NCBI GenBank assembly: GCA_018882895.1
Contig: VERF01000010.1
Span: 1 to 56,423 of the forward strand
From: Candidatus Kapaibacterium sp.
Lineage (GTDB): Bacteria; Bacteroidota; Ignavibacteria; Kapaibacteriales; Kapaibacteriaceae
Reading direction: 5' to 3'
Length of the DNA stretch: 56,423 bases
Shown here: piece after piece, positions 1,179 through 51,230 of the stretch
How positions within the stretch are numbered: position 1 is the first letter of the stretch
Layout: every line of letters begins with the position of its first letter
Program-made: the position numbers and the translations under genes
The notes under the pieces: generated by a model
Seen by the model: only the letters and a program-made list of their open reading frames with translations
Database searches by the model: none
Told to the model about the DNA's origin: nothing

Positions 1179-1928
1179 TCAGGGACGTCTACCCAGGAGT
1201 GCATCGAAGCGCTTTTCCATTGACAGAGGCCCCCTTACAAAGGTCTCATAATTTTGGTGTCTCTCGCTCATTGCGTCGGCCCTGAGTACATCTCGGACCG
1301 AGGTCAATGCCTCGGAACAAATCGCTTGAACGTGGCGAATCGGTGTGGAAGGTTCTATGACAAGGGGCTTGTCAAAGCGCACCCAGCACGCTGGCAGCTG
1401 TTCTCGGAGCATCTCGTAGCGCATTGCTACCGGAAGAATACGGCAAGGGCCGACCAGATGTGTCAGTATGCCTACGCCAGGTTCGCAATCGATTCGATCG
1501 ACATCTTGGTGGATTAGCTCTCCCTGTGGATACATCCACAGGATTCGGTTCGTGCCTCGAATGCGGCCTGCCGCGTATCGCAGAGACTTCATGGCACTCT
1601 TGGCATCCTCCCGGATGACGCTGAAGATGCCGAGGTGTGAAAAGAATCGATAGCGAGAAAGCTGGCGATACTCCATCATGCCATCCATGTCGAGACTGTG
1701 TCGGGAGAAGGCGATCGTGATTGCCGCAGCTGCATCCCACCAGGATCCGTGAGTGGAAACGATGATGGTCGGAATTCCGTCAACAGCGGCCTTGACCGAC
1801 TCCAGGTGCTCTTCGCCGGCGATGTAGCCTCGAGAAAAGTGACGTCGCAGGGTGAAGTTGAAGTAGCGACCCCAGAAGAATCGATCGAGGGCGCGCGGCT
1901 GTGCTTCGATGAACGGTTTGTCAGTCAT
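1179..1928 (-). CDS. PlsC-like lysophospholipid acyltransferase
   Basis: This 249-aa protein has the HX4D acyltransferase motif (HGSWWD, about residue 60), which is the catalytic His/Asp pair of the LPLAT/PlsC superfamily. A YPQGE block near residue 134 matches motif III, which binds the acyl-acceptor phosphate. The family moves acyl chains from acyl-CoA or acyl-ACP onto a lysophospholipid or similar acceptor at the inner membrane. The sequence does not show which acceptor is used. No clear transmembrane helix is visible, so it is probably a peripheral membrane protein. The gene stands alone: it converges with the T9SS gene and diverges from mnmA across only 36 bp. Ornithine-lipid or other glycerolipid acyltransferases are alternatives. 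Confidence 0.8.
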   Translation of the reverse strand: MTDKPFIEAQPRALDRFFWGRYFNFTLRRHFSRGYIAGEEHLESVKAAVDGIPTIIVSTHGSWWDAAAAITIAFSRHSLDMDGMMEYRQLSRYRFFSHLGIFSVIREDAKSAMKSLRYAAGRIRGTNRILWMYPQGELIHQDVDRIDCEPGVGILTHLVGPCRILPVAMRYEMLREQLPACWVRFDKPLVIEPSTPIRHVQAICSEALTSVRDVLRADAMSERHQNYETFVRGPLSMEKRFDALLGRRP

Positions 1929-1964
1929 GGTAAGTTTGCATCTCCAGTCAGAAAGCTACCACCA

Positions 1965-3077
1965 GTGGAACGGAATTCAAATCGTGTTATCGTCGGCATG
2001 TCCGGCGGAGTCGACTCCAGCGTTGCTGCCGGACTGCTCGTAGAGCAGGGTTTTGACGTGGTCGGCATCACCATCAAGACCTACAAGTATGAGGACGTCG
2101 GTGGCAATGTCGGAAATGATTCAACGTGCTGCTCGCTCGACGGCATCAACGATGCACGGCGTGTAGCTTTGGGTCTGGGCATTCCACATTACACCGTTGA
2201 CTTTACCGAGACGTTCAAAGATCAGGTCATCAACTACTTTGTTCAGGACTACCTCGAGGGTAACACACCGAATCCATGCGTTAAGTGTAACCGCCAGATC
2301 AAATGGGCCGAGATGCTTCGGAAGGCCGACTCGCTCGGTGCCGAATTCATCTCCACGGGTCACTATGCCAGTATAATGCACGACGAGACGAGCGGCCGCC
2401 GCTGGATACGCCGCAGTCTCGATCCTCAGAAGGATCAATCGTACATGCTCTGGAGTGTCCGACAAGAGCACCTGGCCCGTACCATCTTTCCGCTCTCAGG
2501 ATTTACCAAGCCACAATCGCGCGCCGAGAAGGAGCGCCTTGGGCTTGATCTGGCACCGAAACCGGAGTCGTACGAGATATGTTTCATTGCCGACAACGAC
2601 TACAGGCGGTTTCTGCGTGATGCCGTTAGCGACATCGACCAGAGGATCGGCACCGGGGACATCGTGCTCGACGGCCGTGTGATCGGTACGCATGAGGGTT
2701 ATCCGTTCTACACCGTTGGTCAGCGAAAGGGGCTGGGCATAGCCCACTCCGAGCCGCTGTATGTTTTGAACGTCCTTCCCGACACTAACACGGTCGTGGT
2801 TGGAACCGAGGAAAAGCTCGAGGCCACAACACTCACGGCACATAGCGTCAATCTGCAGAAGTACTCCGATCTGAATGATGAGCGGCGATTTCTCGTAAAG
2901 GTGCGCTACAAGGATGCCGGTGCCATGGCCACGTGCCGTACCGACGCGGCGGGGCGTCTGCACGTAACATTCGACGAGCCCCGACGTGCCATTGCACCTG
3001 GCCAGTCGGTAGTGATGTACGAGGGTGACGATGTAGTCGGTGGTGGGATCATTCAGCGTCCATCGGACGAGGTCTGA
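1965..3077 (+). CDS. mnmA: tRNA-specific 2-thiouridylase MnmA
   Basis: MnmA adds sulfur at C2 of wobble uridine 34 in tRNA-Lys, tRNA-Glu and tRNA-Gln, using ATP and a sulfur relay. The PP-loop SGGVDSS is at residues 13-19. The two catalytic cysteines are visible in NPCVKCN (about residue 107) and EICFIAD (about 205). The C-terminal beta-barrel ends with APGQSVVMYE and GGGII. I place the start at GTG 1965, which gives 370 aa, the usual family length. An ATG at 1998 would begin inside the PP-loop, and the open frame further upstream only overlaps the divergent acyltransferase. It is followed 3 bp later by tgt, another wobble-position modification enzyme, so the two are probably cotranscribed. 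Confidence 0.95.
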   Translation: MERNSNRVIVGMSGGVDSSVAAGLLVEQGFDVVGITIKTYKYEDVGGNVGNDSTCCSLDGINDARRVALGLGIPHYTVDFTETFKDQVINYFVQDYLEGNTPNPCVKCNRQIKWAEMLRKADSLGAEFISTGHYASIMHDETSGRRWIRRSLDPQKDQSYMLWSVRQEHLARTIFPLSGFTKPQSRAEKERLGLDLAPKPESYEICFIADNDYRRFLRDAVSDIDQRIGTGDIVLDGRVIGTHEGYPFYTVGQRKGLGIAHSEPLYVLNVLPDTNTVVVGTEEKLEATTLTAHSVNLQKYSDLNDERRFLVKVRYKDAGAMATCRTDAAGRLHVTFDEPRRAIAPGQSVVMYEGDDVVGGGIIQRPSDEV

Positions 3078-3080
3078 GCA

Positions 3081-4235
3081 GTGTTACCGCAATCTCCGGC
3101 CGACAACCCGTTTCGACTTCTGTCCTCGTGTCCCGACACCAATGCTCGGGTGGGTGAACTGCACACCGATCACGGCATCGTACCGACGCCGATCTTTATG
3201 CCTGTCGGAACGCAGGGTGCTCTCAAGGCCATGGCCCATCGTTCGCTTCTCGAACTGGATGTTCCGATCATCCTGGCCAACACATACCACCTATACCTGA
3301 GGCCCGGAGTTGACACGCTTTCTGCAATGGGCGGACTTCACAGATTCAGCACATGGGATCGTCCGATCCTTACCGACAGCGGCGGATTTCAGGTATTCTC
3401 GTTGCGTGAACTCCGAACAATGAGTCGAGAGGGCGTTGTGTTCCGTTCGCACCTCGACGGATCGAAACATCTGTTCACTCCGGAGAACGTCGTTGACACG
3501 CAACGTGCCATTGGGAGCGACATCTTCATGGTCCTGGACGAGTGTACTGCTTATCCGGCTGATCATGAACAGGCCCGCCGATCCATGGACCTGACCCTTC
3601 ACTGGGCCGAGAGGGGACGCGAACATCATCTCGGAAGCCCCTTTCGATACGGACATCGACAGTTTCAGTTCGGTATCGGCCAAGGTAGTGTCTATCCTGA
3701 CTTACGAAGAGTGTGCATGTCTCGGCTTGTTGACATTGGCTTCGATGGCTATGCGATCGGGGGATTGAGTGTCGGAGAGCCCGTTGAGAACATGTATGAG
3801 ATCGTGGCATGTTCCACCGAGGTCATACCCGTATCCTCGGCGCGCTATCTCATGGGCGTCGGCACACCTGAGAACATACTCCGATCGATCAGCATGGGTG
3901 TGGATATGTTCGACTGCGTCATGCCCACAAGGAACGCCAGGAACGGCACGATATACACGACCAAAGGTCGCGTAAATATCAAGAACGCGACATGGAAGCA
4001 ACGAGACGAGCCGATCGACGACGAGGTTGGCTCCCAAAGCAGTCGGAATTACTCCTTGGCGTATCTTCGCCATCTGTTCAATGCGGGTGAGATTCTCGGA
4101 CTTATGCTTGCAACGGAGCAGAACGTGGCCTTGTATCGCTGGCTTGTTCGCAGCGCACGCGAGAAAATCATCGAGGGCACGTTCCGTCAATGGGCGGCCG
4201 AGACCATTGAACGGCTGAATCAACCACGAGCTTGA
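3081..4235 (+). CDS. tgt: Queuine tRNA-ribosyltransferase (TGT), zinc site missing
   Basis: TGT exchanges guanine-34 for preQ1 in GUN-anticodon tRNAs during queuosine synthesis. The 384-aa protein keeps the catalytic parts: TDSGGFQVFSL (general acid/base Asp), the GIGQGS and GGLSVGE substrate-pocket motifs, and MFDCVMPTRNARNG with the nucleophilic Asp. The structural zinc site is different. Canonical bacterial enzymes have C-x-C-x2-C plus a downstream His. Here the aligned stretch reads EVGSQSSRNYS, with no cysteine, and the usual TIHNL reads TEQNV. All four ligands therefore appear replaced. Some Bacteroidetes enzymes, as I recall them, also lack the cysteines, so this may be a lineage trait and not a sign of inactivity. 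The start is GTG 3081, 3 bp after mnmA. Confidence 0.93.
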   Translation: MLPQSPADNPFRLLSSCPDTNARVGELHTDHGIVPTPIFMPVGTQGALKAMAHRSLLELDVPIILANTYHLYLRPGVDTLSAMGGLHRFSTWDRPILTDSGGFQVFSLRELRTMSREGVVFRSHLDGSKHLFTPENVVDTQRAIGSDIFMVLDECTAYPADHEQARRSMDLTLHWAERGREHHLGSPFRYGHRQFQFGIGQGSVYPDLRRVCMSRLVDIGFDGYAIGGLSVGEPVENMYEIVACSTEVIPVSSARYLMGVGTPENILRSISMGVDMFDCVMPTRNARNGTIYTTKGRVNIKNATWKQRDEPIDDEVGSQSSRNYSLAYLRHLFNAGEILGLMLATEQNVALYRWLVRSAREKIIEGTFRQWAAETIERLNQPRA

Positions 4236-51138: not shown

Positions 51139-51155
51139 GTTCCCGGAAGATGGAG

Positions 51156-51230
51156 CGGGACCGACGGGGCTCGAACCCGCGACCTCCGCCTTGACAGGGC
51201 GGCGCTCTAACCAAGCTGAGCTACGATCCC
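51156..51230 (-). tRNA. tRNA-Asp(GUC)
   Basis: A 75-nt cloverleaf on the minus strand: acceptor GGGATCG/CGGTCCC with discriminator G, D-arm GCTC/GAGC, anticodon stem CCGCC/GGCGG with loop CTGTCAA (anticodon GTC), and T-arm with TTCGAGC. CCA is not encoded. It is second in a tandem pair after tRNA-Ala. The U33-G34-U35 sequence is the recognition site of Tgt, which is encoded in this window. Confidence 0.97.

Follow-up and report, generated by a model that had tools for sequence, protein, structure and literature searches.

The window, i.e., the whole stretch of DNA analysed here (56,423 nucleotides of contig VERF01000010.1 of Candidatus Kapaibacterium sp.), carries a tgt gene whose neighbours are mnmA, yajC, ribBA and greA; the adjacency of tgt and yajC is likewise present in E. 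coli. The features considered below are as follows:

3081..4235, forward strand: tgt, tRNA-guanosine(34) transglycosylase (Tgt), 384 aa (TIGR00430, PF01702)
3375..3377, forward strand: Asp99, aligned with catalytic Asp102
3537..3539, forward strand: Asp153, aligned with Asp156 of the base pocket
3912..3914, forward strand: Asp278, aligned with the nucleophile Asp280 (role from PMC3660597)
4026..4043, forward strand: loop VGSQSS at the former zinc site, residues 316-321, with V316, S318 and S321 at the positions of Zymomonas Cys318, Cys320 and Cys323 (ungapped alignments)
4119..4121, forward strand: Gln347 (CAG), aligned without gaps with zinc ligand His349
51155..51230, reverse strand: tRNA-Asp(GUC), an expected substrate of Tgt (ARAGORN and reading of the sequence)

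The tgt frame begins with GTG and is intact, with no internal stop codons. Its product matches TIGR00430 with 449.2 bits (curated cut-off, 306.75) and PF01702 with an E value of 9.5e-143. The gene is present in a single copy and encodes the only Tgt found in the assembly; a second, zinc-bearing copy was considered, and the assembly contains none. The tRNA-Asp(GUC) that an earlier note on this DNA had placed in the same window was located, and its loop reads U33-G34-U35. The upstream mnmA frame (1698-3077) extends about 92 residues beyond the conserved domain, and the true start of mnmA probably lies near residue 90.

The catalytic and substrate-binding residues of Tgt are retained, as the same note had stated. 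In addition to the three Asp residues listed above, the preQ1 pocket preserves Gln201, Gly228, Leu229, Val231, Met258 and Cys155, with one exchange of Tyr106 to Phe103, a position occupied by Phe in 78 and by Tyr in 116 of the sampled sequences. The dimer hot spot is also preserved in the alignment (Phe89, Tyr328, His331 and Tyr324, the latter in place of Trp326); the roles of the residues in the base pocket and the dimer interface have been described (PMC3660597, PMC5395182). The genome further encodes QueC, QueF, QueA and QueG, each above its family cut-off. A pair of QueA-type genes occurs in this genome (C28:25250-26293 and C8:10670-11842), as in all of the relatives that were searched. 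The second gene shows greater divergence, exceeds the cut-off only after its two pieces have been combined, and is here located about 2.3 kb away from queF.

The zinc signature, CxCxxC plus His, is absent. In a HMMER alignment that is free of gaps across the zinc region, Zymomonas Tgt reads PLDSECHCAVCQKWSRAY...TEHN and the window Tgt reads PIDDEVGSQSSRNYSLAY...TEQN, such that C318 is replaced by V316 (4026-4028), C320 by S318 (4032-4034), C323 by S321 (4041-4043) and H349 by Q347. The loss of all four ligands, which the earlier note had proposed, is thus borne out as V-S-S-Q at the four positions. That note had also named two ways in which the loss might prove illusory, namely a shift of the ligands to nearby Cys or His residues and a sequencing error. 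The ligands were lost rather than displaced, because the Cys residues of the protein (17, 155, 212, 244 and 279) end well before the site and the only His beyond residue 192 is H331, which matches the dimer-interface His333 of Zymomonas, a residue kept in all 196 sequences examined. An error is contradicted by L002-L004, from three independently assembled genomes of this genus: their proteins, which are 86-87% identical, show the same V-S-S-Q. Within the genus pN/pS across tgt ranges from 0.11 to 0.24, a rough measure with synonymous sites near saturation, and this comparison of coding sequences clearly points to purifying selection.

The distribution of the zinc site was assessed in 196 sequences, comprising Zymomonas Tgt and 195 from Bacteroidota; the latter include named genomes (Flavobacterium, Phocaeicola, Chitinophaga and Hymenobacter), which are intermixed with the remainder on the tree. 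A complete Cys3His site is present in 21 of the 196, Zymomonas included, and the other 175 have either a single Cys of the triad or none. Apart from Zymomonas, L117 (Bacteroidetes bacterium) and a family from another part of the phylum (f24, L060), the proteins with a complete site belong to other families of the window's class. No complete site was found among the 51 sequences sampled from the window's own order, 42 of which have no Cys at these positions and 9 of which have one. Judged from these sequences, loss of the zinc site is the normal state in most of the phylum Bacteroidota and not an isolated event. The earlier note's statement that some Bacteroidetes lack the cysteines is borne out as a trait of Bacteroidota, whereas the loss of the His, on which it had placed more emphasis, is not exceptional: the His position is occupied by His in 131 sequences and by Gln in 65, with no other residue, and Gln is found in many lineages and in each of the 23 sequences from the window's family. 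No Tgt match was detected in four genomes of genus g134, family f45 (G196, G240, G244 and G377), which are 99% complete, and loss of queuosine in this genus is possible.

The four positions differ in their variability. The third Cys position contains Ser (83 sequences), Asp (67), Cys (34) or a few other residues. Asp at this position is paired with His in 65 of 67 cases, and Ser-Gln is the most frequent combination that involves Gln (49). The commonest replacement pairs, Ser-Gln, Ser-His and Asp-His, are all able to form hydrogen bonds. The second position varies freely (Ser, Thr, Asn, Ala, Gly and Leu, among others), and some variation is seen at the first as well; two sequences, L159 and L178, show deletions in the loop.

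On a quick IQ-TREE tree of 194 rows, the zinc and zinc-less states are separated by 4 changes, one of which is forced by well-supported branches, and His and Gln by 18 changes, at least 10 of which are so forced. Since only His and Gln occur over these forced switches, the position seems, at the level of sequence, to be constrained to a side chain with a specific role. Two of the eight single-base amino-acid changes from a His codon give Gln, and the chance that ten independent replacements would all be Gln is about 1e-6, a figure that is only indicative in view of reversals and errors in the tree. Coupling of the third (or first) position with His/Gln was not significant in a test of independent pairs and is confounded by descent. 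Elsewhere in the protein, the zinc and Ser-Gln groups differ most at W305 (Tyr or Phe in the zinc forms), T294, L326 and G336; as candidate compensating residues, these are inseparable from descent, given that the zinc state changes about 4 times on the tree.

AlphaFold2, supplied with a 48-sequence alignment, produced a model with a mean pLDDT of 89.2 and values of 91-95 for the residue blocks in 301-350. The model aligns with 1q2r by VIA-align (Z 51.1, 1.9 A over 373 residues), with Foldseek TM scores of about 0.91-0.94, and shows the TIM-barrel fold with its C-terminal subdomain, including the former zinc part. When L117, a relative that possesses Cys3His, was modelled as a control, the helices around the site were the same and lay in an unchanged register. 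AlphaFold2 often builds the folds of metal sites without the metal, and its confidence at the former zinc site is for this reason weak evidence; the predicted fold shows compatibility with a zinc-free state and not proof of its stability.

From the ligand loss and its distribution in the sequences, together with the predicted fold, we infer with a probability of roughly 75% that the window encodes a functional Tgt that would be free of zinc, its zinc knot being replaced by contacts between side chains. Such an enzyme would insert preQ1 at G34 of GUN tRNAs without a structural zinc. Where zinc is present, a single ion is coordinated by both the third Cys and the His, whose side chains consequently face each other. 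The C-terminal subdomain, formerly wrapped around zinc, would here be held by direct contacts. In the window's lineage a hydrophobic residue has taken over from the first Cys; the positions of the third Cys and of the His now carry residues capable of direct hydrogen bonding, probably between Ser321 and Gln347 in this protein, with Asp and His as an equivalent pair in Bacteroidales and Flavobacteriales. The resulting packed, hydrogen-bonded plug would substitute for zinc and maintain the shape of the subdomain and thereby of the homodimer; the retained interface residues suggest that the homodimer is probably preserved. The earlier note had envisaged a zinc-free enzyme held together in another way. 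The four-ligand loss on which that idea rested has stood, and such an enzyme is, on the sequences and the model, the best-supported reading of it. Mutants in the zinc ligands of E. coli Tgt have reportedly lost activity. A report that, to judge from its title, identifies E. coli Tgt as a zinc metalloprotein together with its ligands (Chong 1995, as cited in PMC9508795) counts against the zinc-free reading.

Among the other explanations, the most serious, although still improbable, is that the site is simply dispensable, such that zinc was lost, nothing specific took its place and the residues drift under relaxed constraint. The free second position, the varied first position and the loop deletions would fit this explanation, but drift predicts more letters than the His or Gln of the fourth position and the Ser, Asp or Cys that prevail at the third. 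That a metal is still bound through other residues is considerably less likely: Asp313 and Glu315 are nearby and some lineages keep a lone Cys, but there is no Cys past residue 279, H331 serves the dimer interface, and the family shows no conserved new set of ligands. We consider it very unlikely that the protein is degenerate or has changed its function. Tgt is regarded as a zinc metalloenzyme, and its zinc domain has been called a hallmark (PMC6165067); loss of this site might speak for such a change. Against this, the catalytic and pocket residues are kept, the gene is the sole tgt beside a queuosine pathway, and selection on it is purifying. A sequencing or assembly error, for which the division of the assembly into 131 contigs could be invoked, is negligible, since the frame is open and related species, assembled independently, have these residues too.

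Outside Bacteroidota, 12 of 16 sampled records contain Cys3His (E. coli, Xanthomonas, Acinetobacter, Magnetococcus, Sphingomonas, Paracoccus, Listeria, Paenibacillus, Acetoanaerobium, Monoglobus, Collinsella and Arthrobacter). In Hyphomicrobiales the site reads S-C-T-N in Sinorhizobium meliloti Ak57, where one of the four ligands is left, S-C-T-S in Sinorhizobium sp. K101 and S-C-A-N in Methylobacterium bullatum (L208, L213 and L215); since this lineage is distant, its loss is independent. Mutants of tgt in S. meliloti 1021 display phenotypes of the queuosine pathway; preQ1 rescues the queC and queF mutants but not those of tgt (PMC3568095). If the residues of strain 1021 are those of Ak57, these mutants would provide genetic evidence that Tgt can work although its zinc site is broken. 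A plasmid gene of Tsukamurella tyrosinosolvens annotated as tgt (L214) lacks the three zinc Cys residues and has Ala in place of Asp156; on its sequence, this homologue is probably a non-working Tgt or serves another role.

Other translation proteins bear on the wider pattern. In the genome of the window, bL36 (L220:1501-1614) is free of Cys and bL31 (L221) is missing its usual zinc Cys pairs, each being present in one copy. In a set of 30 other genomes, bL36 is of the zinc type wherever Tgt has Cys3His (17 genomes), whereas in the 13 with a zinc-less Tgt the bL36 motif is lost in 8 and kept in 5 (counts that ignore kinship); direct reading of the sequences shows the motif to be kept in G187 and G164. 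The reverse combination, a lost bL36 motif with a retained Tgt site, occurs in none of the 30, and the two zinc sites tend to disappear in the same lineages. These observations are compatible with a loss of zinc first in Tgt, with several translation proteins of the phylum losing their zinc sites. As a tentative extension, Bacteroidota may have shed structural zinc stepwise (Tgt first, then bL36 and bL31), with a Ser-Gln or Asp-His pair replacing the metal in Tgt, and the Hyphomicrobiales Tgt may have lost the site again; if stepwise shedding were true, Tgt would represent a natural series for evolving out of metal dependence.

We found no publication on a zinc-free Tgt in Bacteroidota in the open-access literature that was searched. 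Most Tgt proteins of a phylum lack the site, which implies that its zinc is replaceable, and zinc should not be annotated as a cofactor of every Tgt; the known function of the enzyme is unchanged by this loss. The states observed, Cys3His, a lone Cys, Ser or Asp with His, and Ser with Gln, form a graded natural series that offers a test of the exchange of a metal for side chains.

Like the Tgt proteins of Zymomonas mobilis and E. coli (EC 2.4.2.29, TIGR00430), that of the window shares the full-length fold, the catalytic Asp residues, the preQ1 pocket and the dimer hot spot, but it contains none of the four ligands of their Cys3His structural zinc site. Like other Bacteroidota Tgt proteins (Flavobacterium, Phocaeicola and Chitinophaga), it has lost the Cys triad; in many of these the His persists, frequently accompanied by Asp in the third position, whereas the window's family combines Gln with Ser, or with a third Cys lost otherwise. 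The Hyphomicrobiales enzymes (Sinorhizobium, Methylobacterium) likewise have a broken site, with one Cys left, but Asn or Ser rather than Gln in place of His. The non-catalytic subunit of the QTRT2 type is the opposite case, in that it has lost the catalytic Asp, keeps the zinc ligands and acts beside a separate catalytic subunit (PMC6165067), whereas the window Tgt is the sole copy. Zinc-free forms are known of bacterial GluRS, in which the dispensability of zinc was tested experimentally (PMC4381286), and non-zinc forms of ribosomal protein S4 (PMC3087516); in these different translation-related proteins, a structural zinc site has been lost in some lineages with the function kept, and the window Tgt would be a comparable case. 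It is an ordinary representative of a zinc-less Tgt variant that is widespread, and not a new kind of system.
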